The position numbers and the translations under genes were made by a program. Shown here one piece after another: positions 13,717-20,938 of a stretch of 64,000 nt of DNA. How positions within the stretch are numbered: position 1 is the stretch's first letter; every line of letters starts with the position of its first letter. This stretch comes from a virus. The stretch spans positions 35,276 through 99,275 of IMG/VR virus record IMGVR_UViG_3300036820_000006; one strand, written 5' to 3'. The notes beneath the pieces are model-generated. The model was not told where the DNA came from, searched no databases, and saw only the letters and a program-made list of their open reading frames with translations.

Positions 13717-16700
13717 CTAAAATTTGACCTCCTGCAGCTCCGCCATGTTCGGCCCGCAGGCACATTCAATGCCCACTACCAGACCCTCTGGAGCGAGCTG
13801 TGGATGCACCAGCACATTACTCGGCCTACCGAACACGTCGCTGATATCATGCAACATCTGCGCACGCAAGCCTACTGGATAACAGAGCAGAATGCTGTCG
13901 TGAATCGTGTTGCACAGGCCGTAGCGCTCAGCCAACCCTTCACGATCTAGCGCTTTCAACCGCTCACGCAGGTCGCCGTGCGCCTCGCTCTGCACTCTGA
14001 ATGCCATGGCGGCGTTGAACTGCTCGCCAGGTTTCCAGCTGCCTTTACCATCGGGCACGTAGACCTCGTAAAACCATCGCAACATTCCGTAGCGGTTCTT
14101 TAGCATGCCCTGCCGGTGCGCCTCTTCGCACACGTTGCGCTGCCATACGAACACCTTTGGGAACAGACGCTCAATAACAGTGCGGAACTCTCTAGCCTGC
14201 TTCAATGAGGCGAAATGTTCACGGTTCATTTCGTAAAGATGTGGCGGCATCAACCCCAACGCAATGCCAAGAATACTCGGCTTGGCCTGCCGGTCACGCA
14301 CGGCTTTATAACGCTCATTGGACCTGAACCAGCGAAAGCGATCCATCAGCTCGTCGTCAGGTAGCGCGAACAGCTTATCCGCATCCGGCAGGCGCAGAAA
14401 GTTCCACGCCACAAAGCTGTGCATGTCCAGCCGTGCCATACGGCAGTTATGTGACAAGAATCCCTCCGCGATAAATGTTTTAGTACTCGTACCTAGTGCC
14501 ACGACAGGATGATTTCCTATAGACTCAATTTTCAAAATCTTGGCGTCATGCGCAAGTTTTCCAAACACGTTCATGCCTTCTAGCCTAGACAAGCACTTAG
14601 GTAATAATCGCTTTGGTCTAAATTGCCCCAGCGCACGTATACCCGCGAATGGCTGCCCCACAAACCTAAATGTACGGCAATCTCGTTGGGGATTGTTAGC
14701 ACTGTCCCCAAGGCTATAACCATATTTAGCTAACATACTTGCTACCGAGTCCGCGATAATCCCAGGTCTCTGTGCGAAACTTAGCTGGCACCCATTACTA
14801 AGGGACCCCTCCCCATCCAAAATTCCGGCAATATATCCTTGATCCCATAGATCAGCACTCTTCCATGGCGGGGTAAACGTGCTCAAGTACATACCCGTAG
14901 CTAATTCATCAGCCCTGCGCCAGCTTACTCGTTGCTTAGTATCAAACTTAGCTAGCCATGTGTGTTCTATGCTGCATGTAACAACGCCTTGGTCAGTGGT
15001 AATGCGCACACACGGACGTTCAATATAATCCACGGACTCAATTACGGATTTACGTAGCTTGCGTTTGCCCTCTATCGGAAACTCATCGAATCCCCAAAGT
15101 ACCTCTCCCTCTCGCAGGTCTATGGCACGTCTCCATTGCAGGTCGGCCGTCAGAATACGAGTATCTGGGGCCACACAATAAGACTCATCTTCAGCTAAGA
15201 ACCCTGTAATAAGGACATGATAACTTTTCAAATCCCAGTTCGCCAGCTCATACCCCGCTGGCGCTTCGATCATACTTTTTATAGCCTTACCCAACTTACC
15301 GTGGGCAGGGTAAGTTTGCGTAGATGGATTGCGCGCACTTAGCTGTCCAGTCGCGGGCGCGAAGGTAAAAGTGGTGTGTACTCGGCCGTCGGCGTGCGGT
15401 TTGAACCCGTCAACATAAGTGCTCGACATCTTTCCCATCTCACGGCATTCAATCACCTTCGTATAAAAGTCATCCTTGTGCCTAACTGCGAGACGTTCTA
15501 GCTCTTTTTTGTTGGTGGTGTCACTGCCTTTCTTGCGATCTTTGGGAATCTTATGCCCACGCACCCGCATATAATTCATCAGTTGCGGCGATGAGTTTGG
15601 TGAGAATTCATACACACGGCACCAGCGTGCAACCCCGGCAGTCTGTGTGCCAAGCTGCTCATCAAATACCTGCTGGCCAAACTGGCGCACATCAAAATAG
15701 AAGCGCTCACCCGGTTCCTCGACGCCATCTTCATCCGTGGTCGGCGGGTCCTCGAACATGCGCGCGCGGATCACCGCTATCTCGTCGGCAGTTACATTGC
15801 TATAACGATTAAGGTAAGCATTCTTGGCGGACTCGGTTAGCGCTTTCTTTGTCTGCTTGCCTTCCACCACCGGAATCCGAGTCGGCGTGATCTCTTCTAG
15901 CAGCTCTTTGACGCGAGGGGGCACTCCGGCATAACCATCCTTCGGCGTGATCTTTCTGGCGTCGGCGGGGAACCTGGCATCCAGCTCTAGCAGCAGCTCC
16001 GCACGCGTAGCATCAAACTGCGCGCCTAGCGCCAGCCTACGCTCATTATTAATCGGCAGGCCCCGCTGCTCCATTTTGGCTAGAATTGGCCGCACTGCTT
16101 CGACTTGGTTCTCATAGCCGACAGCGGCGCGCGCAGGCTGCGGGTCATACCATATCCCGCGATCTACCATAGTGCGGTACGAGACTGAATGAATACGCTG
16201 TGTCGCGTCCACGTCTACGCAGCCGTAGAACTCCAGATTGGTGCCGTTCAAATGCTTCCAGGGGAACGGGAACTGCGCATAGCTAGCAGCGAACTGCAGA
16301 TGCGCGGGCAAATCCGGCTGCATAAAGTGGAACTGTTGTAAGGTATCGTGTACCGGCCCGGCAAGTTCGAGATAGGTGGCATTGCCGAAATCGCGCTGGC
16401 CGACCGCGCGCAGAACTTTCAAATCGAATAAATTGTAATTATGCCCCAGCTTCGGCAGCGGCAGTTTCAGCAGCCATCTTGTCGCTTGAATAAAAGGCTG
16501 CTTCCACGGCATCGCAATAGCTTGGCCTGGCGCGACGCTGAACTGACTTAGCCTAATCTGCGTATCGGTGAATCCATCCGTTGCGTCTTCATCTAGCGAT
16601 GCCGATTCAAAAGTTTCGATATCGTGTGCCAGCGCGGTTAGTACGTGCTCAGCGGTACCGGGAATGCTGGCCAGCCACGCATCTGAACGCGCTTTTACAT

Positions 16701-17418
16701 CGCGGCAGAAATCGTCCAACTGAATAAGTGTTGGATGCAAGGTGTAATTTAGGTGGTTCTGTTGCAGCCACGCTGCTACTGCTTCAGCATCGTTATCCTG
16801 CAGCATGTCCAGAATAAAACTTTTATCTTTACCGTAACGCACGTTGACCGCGCGTTGAATATCTCGCGCCAGCACGCCGGTGAGATGAATCGCGCCTCGG
16901 CGCAGGAAACTAGGATGATATGTAGGCACCACCAGAAGTTCGCAGCCTGCTGCTTCGCAGAACTCTGGCAGCGCGCGAAACACATAACCGCGCATATGGC
17001 TAATAGTGCGCTTTTCGCCCGAGATGCCCGTCAAAGTGCGGAACGGAATGCCGCCAAGCGCCACTACAGTGCGCGGCTTGAACTTGCGAAAGAATTCCAA
17101 TAGATTAGGCTGGCACTGATTGATGACGGAGAACTCATAGTTAGTTCCAGCTAGCGCGTTCCCAAATGGTCTGCAGCGCAACGTATTCGAGATTGCGAAC
17201 TGGTCGCGGGAGAATCCCAGCCGACGCAGCGTGCGCTCTAAGACAGCTCCAGCTGGTGCGTATTTGACAAAAGGAGTTAGTTCACGCGCCTCGTTTTCTC
17301 CGCTGGCCTCGCCAATGAGAGCAACGCCTAAGCTGCAGCTTCCTTCTGGCTGGGAGAAGTCAGTGCCAGCATTGTATAGATAGCAATTTCTACAGCTATC
17401 TGGCTTACTCCTGACCAC
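13717..17418 (-). CDS. SPO1-like DNA polymerase (UDG-like + exonuclease + family A) with intein
   Basis: 1233 aa. Residues 1-~190 form a uracil-DNA-glycosylase-like domain (CRNCYLY, ALIGEASGENEARELTPFVK, NTLRCRPFGN, VVPTYHPSFLRRG). Residues ~260-400 hold the 3'-5' exonuclease (DIETFE at 266, LGHNYNLFDLKVL). The polymerase follows: motif A ANWDLKSYHVL, then after the intein KPSILGIALGL (motif B/O-helix) and HDSILL (motif C). Family knowledge: SPO1 polymerase has the same UDG-like fusion. It is the replicative polymerase of this phage. Residues 748-991 are an intein that must splice out to give a ~989-aa enzyme. The 5' end overlaps the preceding small gene by 14 bp. Confidence 0.9.
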   Translation of the reverse strand: MVRSKPDSCRNCYLYNAGTDFSQPEGSCSLGVALIGEASGENEARELTPFVKYAPAGAVLERTLRRLGFSRDQFAISNTLRCRPFGNALAGTNYEFSVINQCQPNLLEFFRKFKPRTVVALGGIPFRTLTGISGEKRTISHMRGYVFRALPEFCEAAGCELLVVPTYHPSFLRRGAIHLTGVLARDIQRAVNVRYGKDKSFILDMLQDNDAEAVAAWLQQNHLNYTLHPTLIQLDDFCRDVKARSDAWLASIPGTAEHVLTALAHDIETFESASLDEDATDGFTDTQIRLSQFSVAPGQAIAMPWKQPFIQATRWLLKLPLPKLGHNYNLFDLKVLRAVGQRDFGNATYLELAGPVHDTLQQFHFMQPDLPAHLQFAASYAQFPFPWKHLNGTNLEFYGCVDVDATQRIHSVSYRTMVDRGIWYDPQPARAAVGYENQVEAVRPILAKMEQRGLPINNERRLALGAQFDATRAELLLELDARFPADARKITPKDGYAGVPPRVKELLEEITPTRIPVVEGKQTKKALTESAKNAYLNRYSNVTADEIAVIRARMFEDPPTTDEDGVEEPGERFYFDVRQFGQQVFDEQLGTQTAGVARWCRVYEFSPNSSPQLMNYMRVRGHKIPKDRKKGSDTTNKKELERLAVRHKDDFYTKVIECREMGKMSSTYVDGFKPHADGRVHTTFTFAPATGQLSARNPSTQTYPAHGKLGKAIKSMIEAPAGYELANWDLKSYHVLITGFLAEDESYCVAPDTRILTADLQWRRAIDLREGEVLWGFDEFPIEGKRKLRKSVIESVDYIERPCVRITTDQGVVTCSIEHTWLAKFDTKQRVSWRRADELATGMYLSTFTPPWKSADLWDQGYIAGILDGEGSLSNGCQLSFAQRPGIIADSVASMLAKYGYSLGDSANNPQRDCRTFRFVGQPFAGIRALGQFRPKRLLPKCLSRLEGMNVFGKLAHDAKILKIESIGNHPVVALGTSTKTFIAEGFLSHNCRMARLDMHSFVAWNFLRLPDADKLFALPDDELMDRFRWFRSNERYKAVRDRQAKPSILGIALGLMPPHLYEMNREHFASLKQAREFRTVIERLFPKVFVWQRNVCEEAHRQGMLKNRYGMLRWFYEVYVPDGKGSWKPGEQFNAAMAFRVQSEAHGDLRERLKALDREGLAERYGLCNTIHDSILLCYPVGLRAQMLHDISDVFGRPSNVLVHPQLAPEGLVVGIECACGPNMAELQEVKF
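14446..15177 (-). mobile_element. LAGLIDADG intein in the DNA polymerase
   Basis: 244 aa inserted just after polymerase motif A. Block A begins at Cys (CVAPDTRILTADLQWRRAID), block B is TCSIEHTWL, block F is VVALGTSTKTFIAEGFL and block G ends SHN before Cys+1 of the C-extein. One LAGLIDADG helix is evident (YIAGILDGEGSLS), so a homing endonuclease domain is present; a second copy is not obvious. All splice-junction residues are intact. It splices autocatalytically and may home into intein-less polymerase genes of related phages. Confidence 0.88.
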
Positions 17419-17599: not shown

Positions 17600-19038
17600 G
17601 GCAGCACTCTGGGATCGATCTTACATTTGCGAGCCAGAGTATCCTTATCGCCTACCAAGCGCAACCCTTGCAGTGTTCTGCACCGCGATAGCGAGACATA
17701 GAGCATGGCTGGAGAGCCGAACATCCAACTACGAAAGTCAATCTGGCACCGGTCGAGCGATAAGCCTTGGATTTTATGCACAGTGCTCGCATACGCCAAC
17801 CGGATAGGATAATACTCGATCTGCCCGATCACGTACCTCCTGACGCGGCCGCGATAGTGAACCTTCGCGATATAGCGACCGTCATCTGACTCTTTGGCTA
17901 TGCTCTGCTCCACTGTTTCGTTCGGGCGCTCGCCTAGCTCCACACCGCGCACAATCGTCGGCACGTATACGATCTGCTTATTGCGTACCAGTTCAATCGC
18001 AATTACCCACTTGTTATCGCTGCCGACTTGTTCAATCCCGAGTACATGCCCGCAATCACCATTCGCATACTCCAGCACGCCTGGTGAGCTATAGTTATTC
18101 GCTAGCAGCATCACATAAGCACCTTCACGCAGCACAGTCTGGTCGGGAATGTTCTTCCATTCAGAACGCTGCTTGCCCCAGCGGCGCGATGGCAGCAGCA
18201 TCTTACGACCGCGAATGCGATCCAACGCTAGCTGATTAGCGCGATCTACTTCGGCGTTCTGGCTGAGGATAGTAGTGCCATCAAAATCGCGATCAGTCAT
18301 GTTGAAGAATTCAACCGAGGATGCAAGCAGGCTAGCGCATTCAGACCCGTTGCCTCGCCGCGCATGGTTGAGCGCCGACAGGAACTCAGCATCGCCTTGC
18401 CGCCACACTTTTGTGAGCCGGGTAATGTTGTTGCCGAATCTGAGCCAACTACGCGCGTCGAAAGCCCATGGAGTTTTGGCTCGTGCTACTTTGCGCCCGC
18501 TAGAACTGCGTTCTGGAATGCTGGGGAGCTGGCAGAAATCACCACAGAGCACTAATCCTAAGGGTTCTTCCCCATCCTTAGTGTTCTGGTTCACATCATC
18601 GAACACATGCACAATCACATCTAGTTGTTCACAGGAAATCATGCTGATTTCGTCAATCACCACGTTACGGTAACCTTCGCGGCGCAGACTATGAAGCTTG
18701 TACTGCGCTGAACGTTTGAGGTAAGCATCGCGCAGTGAATCGGTATCGAAGTAGCCGAGCAGTGAGTGGATCGTGGTGGTGTTGAGGTTGACCGCCGAGA
18801 TGCCGGTGCTCGCGCTCAGCACGGCATAGCAAGGGTCCTCGGCGATGCGCTGCTTCAGCGTGAACGTCTTGCCAGTGCCCGCTGAACCGCAGAGGAACGA
18901 GCAAGGAGTTTCTAGTGAGCGCTGGGGCAACGGCTCCAACGCGGATTCACTTTCCTCGTCTATATATACAGGCTCGTCGGCCAGGGGCTCGTCGCCCAGC
19001 TCATCTAGCGCATCCAGCTCATCATCGTAAACACTCAT
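17590..19038 (-). CDS. Pif1/Dda-like SF1B DNA helicase
   Basis: 482 aa. Walker A at 51-58 (GSAGTGKT), Walker B VVIDEISMIS, motif III LCGDFCQLP, motif IV region TKVWRQGD, motif V YASTVHKIQGLSLD and motif VI YVSLSRCRTL, in the correct order. The acidic N-terminal 35 residues are phage-specific. Family members unwind DNA 5'-3' and help start or restart replication. It heads the helicase-small protein-polymerase unit. Confidence 0.9.
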   Translation of the reverse strand: MSVYDDELDALDELGDEPLADEPVYIDEESESALEPLPQRSLETPCSFLCGSAGTGKTFTLKQRIAEDPCYAVLSASTGISAVNLNTTTIHSLLGYFDTDSLRDAYLKRSAQYKLHSLRREGYRNVVIDEISMISCEQLDVIVHVFDDVNQNTKDGEEPLGLVLCGDFCQLPSIPERSSSGRKVARAKTPWAFDARSWLRFGNNITRLTKVWRQGDAEFLSALNHARRGNGSECASLLASSVEFFNMTDRDFDGTTILSQNAEVDRANQLALDRIRGRKMLLPSRRWGKQRSEWKNIPDQTVLREGAYVMLLANNYSSPGVLEYANGDCGHVLGIEQVGSDNKWVIAIELVRNKQIVYVPTIVRGVELGERPNETVEQSIAKESDDGRYIAKVHYRGRVRRYVIGQIEYYPIRLAYASTVHKIQGLSLDRCQIDFRSWMFGSPAMLYVSLSRCRTLQGLRLVGDKDTLARKCKIDPRVLPWL

Positions 19039-19497
19039 GGGAAACTCGTTTCATCATCTATAGGCAGGCTGGGTTCAACCGCTACCGCTGCTACCTGTTC
19101 AAACATCTCCAGCGCACGCTCATCCGCTGCATCGCTCAGCATCTGAGCAGAGGTCTGTGGGCGTAGATTCTCGCTGGCGAAGAACTCTTCCCACTGAGCA
19201 CGCTCACGCACATCCAACTGTTTGAGGAACCAAGCTTGCTTAGCGCTGACTGCATTATGCTCTGCTGTGCCTAAAATTTGAAGATTATCTGGGTGGGGGT
19301 TCAAGCGGTTGCGGTCTAAGTGGTGGATTACAACATCGTGTTCGAGTGCCCGTGGACCGAACTTAGCTAAATGCCACTAGCCGGTGAACGCGCATGCCGC
19401 GTAGAGGACCCGCACTCAGAACCAAGTACCCTTTTGAATCAATGGTAGTGCCGTCTCCCAGCTCGAACTTGCCTTTGCTGCCGCGTTCTTGGGGCAT
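19035..19497 (-). pseudogene. HNH endonuclease gene with +1 frameshift
   Basis: ATG 19497 opens a frame (MPQERGSKGKFELGDG ... RGMRVHRLVAFS) that stops at TAA 19365-19363. Skipping one base just before that stop continues as AKFGPRALEHDVVIHHLDRN, then NPHPDNLQILGTAEHN, a classic HNH homing-nuclease motif, to 19035. The two pieces join perfectly, so either one base is extra or a +1 recoding event occurs. The C-terminal part ends overlapping the helicase start. Confidence 0.7.
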
Positions 19498-19527
19498 TAC
19501 GTTTGAGCGCCCTTCAGAGAGTTAGAA

Positions 19528-19556
19528 GCCCCGGCAGAGTATCCGACTGCCGGGGC
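19528..19556 (-). terminator. Perfect 10-bp hairpin after tRNA cluster
   Basis: GCCCCGGCAG (19528-19537) and CTGCCGGGGC (19547-19556) form a perfect GC-rich stem with a 9-base loop. On the minus strand it is followed by TTCTAACTCTC. It lies just downstream of tRNA-Thr and probably ends or protects the tRNA transcript. Confidence 0.6.
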
Positions 19557-19565
19557 CATTTATGT

Positions 19566-19637
19566 GCGAACCGAGGGGATCGAACCCTCGACATCACGAT
19601 TACAATTCGTGCGCTCTATCCACTGAGCTAGGTTCAA
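19566..19637 (-). tRNA. tRNA-Thr (UGU)
   Basis: Minus strand. D arm CTCAGTGGATAGAGC, anticodon stem CACGA/TCGTG with loop ATTGTAA giving anticodon TGT, T arm GAGGG-TTCGATC-CCCTC. The acceptor TTGAACC/GGTTCGC pairs except at the first position. CCA is not encoded. Confidence 0.8.
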
Positions 19638-19689
19638 GTTCGCGGTTGTCAGTGCTCCACAGCACCGAACATAGTTGGCTCTGTCTAAT

Positions 19690-19807
19690 CACGCTGCTCT
19701 ACCACTGAGCTACTCCCCCTCAGGGCAGCGAACGTATCTTTGAGTGAGGTCAGAGATCGCATTCGCTGCTTGGAGGGGAAGAAGGGATTCGAACCCCCGA
19801 CCACGCT
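19690..19807 (-). tRNA. Candidate permuted tRNA (3' half before 5' half)
   Basis: In transcription order the T arm (GGGGG-TTCGAAT-CCCTT, 19782-19798), acceptor strand CTTCCCC (19775-19781) and TCCA come first. Then a 51-base link follows, then the acceptor strand GGGGGAG (19713-19719) and a normal D arm (GCTCAGTGGTAGAGC). The two acceptor strands pair fully with one G-U. The link contains an 8-bp inverted repeat (GCAGCGAA/TTCGCTGC) that extends the acceptor helix. AGCGTG occurs at the inner end of both halves. No complete anticodon arm could be built, so the anticodon is unknown. It could also be two unrelated tRNA fragments. Confidence 0.4.
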
Positions 19808-20042
19808 TTTTGGGCCTTCTACTCTGTGCTGCTTCTGCTGCCGCATCAGTCTCTTGGGTGATAGCCTTAGTCTGCGCTCGCGGTACATGGCCGAGAGACT
19901 TCCTTTAGCTTGATCCCTGAGTCTGAGCCTTGAGTTACCCCTCGCGGGGTCACCCAAACTTGGGAAATGCTGGCGGGACAGATTTACGACCTTGCCTCTT
20001 ACCTCTCGGAACGGTCATGCGAGCGGCCAGCATCGAATTTGG
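19808..20042 (-). other. Structured non-coding stretch inside tRNA cluster
   Basis: No convincing gene. On the minus strand it can form several stems, including AGTCTCT/AGAGACT, CCCCGCGAGGGG and an 8-bp pair GCCAGCAT/ATGCTGGC at ~20025 and ~19967. It may be tRNA precursor or remnants of further RNA genes. A group I intron and a tmRNA were considered and not supported. Confidence 0.35.
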
Positions 20043-20043
20043 T

Positions 20044-20115
20044 TGCGGGGGCTGGACTTGAACCAGCGACCTTGTGGTTATGAGCCACCTGTTCTACCAA
20101 CTGAACTACCCCGCC
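20044..20115 (-). tRNA. tRNA-Met-like (CAU)
   Basis: Minus strand. D arm GTTCAGTTGGTAGAAC, anticodon stem GTGG/CCAC with loop CTCATAA giving anticodon CAT, T arm GCTGG-TTCAAGT-CCAGC, acceptor GGCGGGG/CCCCGCA with a mismatch at 1-72. CAU could mean elongator Met, initiator, or Ile after lysidine modification; the elongator reading is most likely. Confidence 0.8.
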
Positions 20116-20168: not shown

Positions 20169-20938
20169 TTACTTCTCCTGCAGGGGCTTGAACAGCCAGC
20201 CATAAATCGCCGCGCCGACTGCCGTGCCCTTCGGGTCCTCAATCGTCTGCTCATTAGCCCGCGAGCGCGCTTTCTGCACAGCGCGAATCAGTTGTTCTGA
20301 GCGATCCATCAGCTCGGCCTTCTTAGCGGGCGTAATCAAGCTCGACCACTCCTGTTCCAGAATTGTGCCCACAGCTACATCTTTGGTGACCAGTGTAAAC
20401 TTGCGCTGGATGCTTATCAGTAGCAGGTGCTAACGTCAGCGGCTCCTGTACTTTCTGCGTGCGCGTCTTGGTGACCTCTCTGGCCTTGAACACATGCGCG
20501 CCTTTAGCGCTATCATGCGTGAAGCCCTTAGCCGGGTCCAGAGTAGGAATCGAGCGCACTAAGTCTTGCGCCTCCTTTTAGGCGCTTCTCCAGTTGCAGC
20601 AGGAACGTTGCAGGCGCGTCCTTTAGGACTACAGCATCATCTTCCAGTACCACGTCCGACTTGGCATGCGTGTTTGCCATGTCGATGTTGTAAGCCGCAT
20701 CCAGCGAGCGGTCTAAAATCTTGCTGATCCATTCCACCTCGTCGGTTACGGTAGATTGGATATCTGATTGCGCCTCGGTCTTGGGCAGCGCGCCTTCATC
20801 GTTCGGCGTGAACGTGACGCGCTTCTCCTCAAACAGGTGGCGCTTACCAGCGAACGTCGCCTGCAGATCAGTACGCGTCTTCTGCGCCTGACCGCTGAGG
20901 TTGTTATTGGTTGCGAGTAGCTCGTGAAGCTTTGCCAT
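20169..20938 (-). pseudogene. Conserved phage gene split by two +1 frameshifts
   Basis: Three overlapping frames (20528-20938, 20323-20559, 20169-20372) read as one protein: MAKLHELLATNNNLSGQAQK ... LQLEKRL | KEAQDLVRSIPTLDPAKGF ... TDKHPAQVY | LVTKDVAVGTILEQEWSSLI ... GWLFKPL. I recognise this order from an uncharacterised bacterial/phage family. Each junction needs one extra A removed (in CTAAAAGG near 20571, and in TTTACACTGG near 20388). A promoter lies upstream at 20971-21000. Either sequencing indels or decay. Confidence 0.65.

Follow-up and report, generated by a model that had tools for sequence, protein, structure and literature searches.

A permuted, tRNA-like RNA element lies on the minus strand of the window (the whole 64,000-nucleotide stretch analyzed, from virus record IMGVR_UViG_3300036820_000006). 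It is probably a phage member of a widespread family of non-coding RNAs linked to DUF7873 genes, in which a tRNA mimic forms the tip of a larger structured RNA with the topology of YrlA and other Y RNAs. Its permuted order, its pairing, the covariation of that pairing, and its linkage to DUF7873 are all evident from sequence. From 19807 to 19690, the minus strand reads T arm, CTTCCCC-T-CCA, linker hairpin, GGGGGAG, and D arm, so the half carrying the T arm and CCA precedes the half carrying the D arm, at the position and in the order given by the first-pass annotation. That annotation had called a permuted tRNA gene; the permuted order, the paired acceptor, and the linker helix stand, while a gene for a decoding tRNA is not supported, since an internal loop and a helix replace the anticodon loop. 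The core begins with the anticodon 3' strand and the variable loop, passes through the T arm, the acceptor 3' strand, T-CCA, and the linker, and ends with the acceptor 5' strand, the D arm, and the anticodon 5' strand. The features of the locus are as follows.

20169-20938, minus strand: DUF7873 (PF25283) gene, upstream of the element, in three reading frames (Pfam E 1.8e-22 at 20938-20528)
20040-20115, minus strand: ordinary tRNA-Met, separating DUF7873 from the element (ARAGORN; Rfam 62.1 bits)
19814-19832, minus strand: closing helix, 5' strand (pair probabilities 0.7-1.0; family test)
19690-19807, minus strand: permuted tRNA-like core (fold; covariance model built without the window, 60.6 bits, E 2.4e-15)
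19771-19807, minus strand: 3' half, AGCGT-GGTC-GGGGG-TTCGAAT-CCCTT-CTTCCCC-T-CCA (from sequence)
19720-19770, minus strand: linker, 51 nt, hairpin of 10+4+3 bp with loop ACCTCAC and CTGA just before G1 (z -6.0)
19690-19719, minus strand: 5' half, GGGGGAG-TA-GCTC-AGTGGTA-GAGC-A-GCGTG (from sequence)
19659-19678, minus strand: closing helix, 3' strand, beyond the anticodon stem and after the internal loop ATTAGACAGA (pairs with 19832-19814)
19564-19637, minus strand: ordinary tRNA-Thr just downstream of the element (ARAGORN; Rfam 52.7 bits)

The 3' half is composed of AGCGT (19807-19803), the T arm (19798-19782), CTTCCCC (19781-19775), T73, and CCA (19773-19771), and the 5' half of GGGGGAG (19719-19713), TA, the D arm (19710-19696), A, and GCGTG (19694-19690). 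In agreement with the first-pass annotation, the acceptor strands pair at all seven positions with one G.U, and T73-A and C-G pairs extend the helix to 9 bp. The 8-bp inverted repeat noted in the linker does continue the acceptor helix, but its stem is in fact 10 bp long and encloses stems of 4 and 3 bp (-21.6 kcal/mol; z -6.0; 0/200 shuffles). The core folds as one multiloop (-51.5 kcal/mol; z -3.2) with the T arm, the 9-bp acceptor running into the linker hairpin, and the D arm. In the minimum-energy fold, this junction is closed by the anticodon-stem strands, paired as GCGU:GCGU with two G.U. The anticodon arm had been considered unresolvable; its pairing is supplied by the repeated AGCGTG, which is self-complementary with G.U. 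Beyond it, the window's closing helix is borderline when taken alone (flank duplex, P = 0.01-0.02; full fold with shuffled flanks, P = 0.35), and we therefore accept it only by way of the partner-swap test across the family described below. A strict detector of permuted tRNAs found the window site alone in the 99-kb contig and 0 sites in 30 shuffles. ARAGORN, the check proposed earlier, and Rfam called no tRNA at the element, just the flanking tRNA-Met and tRNA-Thr.

Several neighboring genes have features of their own. In both intact tRNAs (19564-19637 and 20040-20115), the first acceptor pair is mismatched (T1-C72 and G1-A72). An HNH-type endonuclease gene (19035-19530, minus strand) adjoins the tRNA-Thr and has an apparent single-base frameshift near 19370. 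Farther along the minus strand, at 13717-17418, a family A DNA polymerase carries an N-terminal uracil-DNA-glycosylase domain (Pfam), and the polymerase part of this gene appears, judging from its sequence, to contain an intein. The phage with the most similar terminase (L002/G001, 41%) has neither the locus nor DUF7873.

Neither the exact permuted halves nor a Y-like motif had a match when IMG/VR and bacterial genomes were scanned. Scanning IMG/VR with the 3' half only returned 20 contigs, mostly with ordinary tRNA-Cys, and in one of these (L030) the halves are again permuted, here with another D arm, a linker of 11 nt, and an anticodon stem paired at 5/5 positions. DUF7873 is the upstream neighbor of the permuted element in both L030 and the window. 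We examined 165 DUF7873 loci in total, 85 from phages and 80 from bacteria (a few of them archaeal), including 80 further phage and 80 genome loci taken from the 253 and at least 520 relatives matched. The strict detector looked for a T arm, a 7/7 acceptor at a distance of at most 160 nt, and a D arm, and it excluded candidates with either half in a tRNA called by ARAGORN. This gave 150 elements, covering 76/85 phage and 56/80 genome loci; with a covariance model added, a permuted element was present in 82/85 and 72/80, respectively. All 150 detector elements share the strand of DUF7873, 149 of them at most 1.7 kb downstream, and 0 were found elsewhere in 2.7 Mb. In the window, DUF7873 likewise lies upstream on the same strand, though the gene is frameshifted. 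The presence of the permuted RNA behind DUF7873 in nearly all 165 loci marks the two as a real and widespread RNA-protein pair, and the RNA as something other than a scrambled tRNA.

One or two permuted elements were found in each of two Rhizobium Cuauhnahuacvirus phages, Rhizobium phage RHph_TM16, Rhodococcus phage NiceHouse, and Arthrobacter phage Racecar, where they occupy the unannotated 400-500 nt 3' of DUF7873 and fall below Rfam cut-offs. Across the DUF7873 loci, Rfam gave only tRNAs above cut-off, with group I/II introns, GOLLD, ROOL, and the like absent. Elsewhere among phages, the linker loop reads ACCTTAC, ACCTAC, or ACCCT, often with a TGA ending (L040, L041, L044, L104, L110, and L117). 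Five actinobacterial chromosomal loci (L170, L175, L178, L163, and L177) carry tandem pairs of permuted modules, in which the upstream member has the longer D arm. A contig from a Lokiarchaeota metagenome-assembled genome (L128) has DUF7873 and a permuted element; the bin is archaeal, and the contig is possibly a misbinned virus. The four Herpetosiphon DUF7873 loci yielded no permuted element; in Herpetosiphon aurantiacus, an ADP-ribosylglycohydrolase gene directly follows DUF7873 (L157:5828-6820). In NiceHouse, a gene for a Band-7/SPFH membrane protein follows the DUF7873 RNA and a tRNA-Lys (L042:4374-5246).

The proposed fold was evaluated across 135 unique elements, using the anticodon stem, which had played no part in detection. 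It was paired at 5/5 positions in 59/135 elements, against 3.9 expected with swapped partners (maximum of 10 in 500), and at 4/5 or more in 95/135, against 22.5 (maximum of 37 in 500). The closing helix beyond it scored a mean of 8.61 with its own partner and 6.69 with swapped partners (sd 0.12), the window itself scoring 9.0. Among 29 cores, whose rows were partly selected by pairing, 20/21 pairs change on both sides (covariation score of 1.04 versus 0.24 shuffled). RNAalifold applied to 20 actinobacterial loci, with no imposed structure, recovered the module (its T and D arms, its acceptor hairpin, and its closing stem), two outer helices, and a second tandem module upstream. Covariance model R1, from which the window was withheld, scored the window at 60.6 bits; the best of 74 control matches (tRNA-array loci and other phage sequence) reached 48.6 bits and consisted of ordinary tandem tRNAs.

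The family retains the landmarks of a tRNA, with U8, A14, A21, the D-loop GG, a T loop of TTCRANN, and a 7-bp acceptor. N73-CCA is encoded in 54/78 phage elements (69%), T occupies position -1 in 81/135 elements (60%), and many phage elements sit inside tRNA arrays. All of this would suit a true permuted tRNA gene in the red-algal style, the transcript of which would be circularized or ligated at the anticodon, after which RNase P and 3' enzymes would open it at the acceptor and so produce a decoding tRNA. We regard such a gene as unlikely. The strands inside the anticodon stem enter an internal loop and then the covarying closing helix, leaving no readable anticodon, and no 7-nt anticodon loop was found. 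The bacterial chromosomal copies, moreover, have closed acceptor loops of 5-8 nt and mostly lack CCA. Because a closing helix takes the place of the anticodon loop, we read the element as a tRNA mimic, not as a decoding tRNA. Counting against the mimic are the encoded CCA, which is unexpected in a pure mimic, and, in the window, the frameshifted DUF7873, the weak anticodon stem, and the nonsignificant full-fold energy with shuffled flanks.

Other explanations concern the origin and state of the window copy. Its two halves match one tRNA type at a spacing that suits a tRNA array, as they would if two ordinary tRNAs had decayed in a chance neighborhood, a tandem duplicate having lost its outer halves. 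However, remnants of those outer halves are not significant (P = 0.07 and 0.86), and the identical order recurs in more than 150 DUF7873 loci, among which the acceptor takes about 100 different sequences, making this origin highly improbable. A reading as two recombined fragments, raised earlier because AGCGTG occurs at both inner ends, was also rejected. Two separate complete tRNAs in related phages had been named as the outcome that would count against a permuted gene, and the related loci gave the opposite, the same permuted element. There is more to weigh in the idea that the family is real and the window copy is dying, although we doubt it as well. The window's DUF7873 matches three HMM fragments (1-123, 5e-29; 124-193, 1.6e-20; 184-250, 6e-18) in three frames, implying two frameshifts. 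This, together with the frame break in the neighboring HNH gene, means that the copy may be decaying, and a weakened anticodon stem would fit the same course. Yet no damage is seen in the linker hairpin or in the acceptor, T, and D stems, and the element scores high against the model; the frameshifts may be assembly indels, though ORFs of 2-5 kb elsewhere are intact.

Y RNAs that mimic tRNA are described from Ro60-bearing bacteria. Like the present element, YrlA (bacterial Y RNA, RF02553) places a T arm, a closed acceptor-type hairpin, and a D arm in the same order on a stem, giving a stem with a tRNA-like tip (PMC8394870). YrlA is encoded with Ro60/Rsr, whereas the present element lies beside a DUF7873 gene, and the 99-kb contig has no Ro60/Rsr (TROVE) gene. 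Unlike YrlA, the phage elements combine longer linkers with a complete 7-bp acceptor and N73-CCA, and the actinobacterial loci have two modules in tandem. Loci of Streptomyces, Planotetraspora, Lentzea, and Pyrinomonadaceae match the whole YrlA model (1-114) at 24-38 bits. The window scores 15.4 bits and the best relative 37.6 bits, far below the Rfam gathering cut-off of 69, while ordinary tandem tRNAs reach 33.6 bits on part of the model. For these reasons we do not file the element as YrlA, and we rejected the YrlA bit score as proof of descent from Y RNAs, since tandem tRNAs do equally well on a portion of it.

A 2014 review (Soma 2014, PMC3978253) lists permuted tRNA genes from algae and one archaeon, Thermofilum, only. 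These resemble the DUF7873 elements in having the 3' half upstream of the 5' half, with an intervening sequence connecting complementary acceptor strands (1-74 bp, PMC3978253; 51 nt after CCA in the window). The DUF7873 elements differ in occurring in phages and bacteria, in showing no evident anticodon loop, and in their link to a single protein family. Permuted two-piece tmRNA (RF04321 and relatives) shares a permuted acceptor domain with an internal linker, whereas the DUF7873 elements have a canonical D arm; tmRNA models gave no gathering-level match in the window and partial, subthreshold matches in relatives (L030, 21.4 bits; L049, 23.2 bits). A 122-nt tRNA of Aeromonas phage Aeh1 is close to the window element in sequence (3' half, 31/34 identical; 5' half, 25/26), but its halves are in normal order, and its anticodon arm carries an insert of about 48 nt. 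Aeh1 has three neighboring tRNA-like genes of about 115-122 nt (L017:4737-5122), each enlarged by a long insert in or near the anticodon arm; the annotation names the third tRNA-Val, and ARAGORN misses all three. The open-access full-text literature yielded no permuted tRNA of phages.

The same literature yielded no mention of DUF7873, and the protein had no match in PDB (by sequence or fold), BFVD, NCBIfam, or PADLOC, although its predicted structure is of high confidence (pLDDT 92.9). Protein neighbors of three sampled bacterial DUF7873 loci gave no functional hint. From the genetic linkage, we infer that the DUF7873 protein binds the permuted RNA. The RNA probably folds as a long stem with a circularly permuted tRNA-like module at its tip: a T arm, an acceptor helix closed by the linker, a D arm, and an anticodon-type stem closing the module, which runs on through an internal loop into another helix in place of an anticodon loop. 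By analogy with the YrlA Y RNA, this module may mimic tRNA toward tRNA-handling proteins. The N73-CCA in 69% of phage elements and the T at -1 in 60% of all elements suggest that phage copies may also meet tRNA-processing enzymes; less certainly, RNase P and 3' maturation could nick the linker there, so that the tRNA-like RNA would consist of two pieces and end in CCA.

As a tentative proposal, then, phages and many bacteria could encode an undescribed ribonucleoprotein of DUF7873 and a permuted tRNA-like RNA, the phage linker being cut by tRNA-processing enzymes to give a two-piece, CCA-ended, non-decoding tRNA that might act in translation control, tRNA repair, or counter-defense. If this is true, phages and several bacterial phyla share a new RNA-protein pair that tRNA finders and Rfam have overlooked, and DUF7873 gains a testable RNA partner. 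The family would also provide naturally occurring permuted tRNA folds with which to study RNase P and CCA enzymes, and it raises the question of why phages already rich in tRNAs keep a permuted element.
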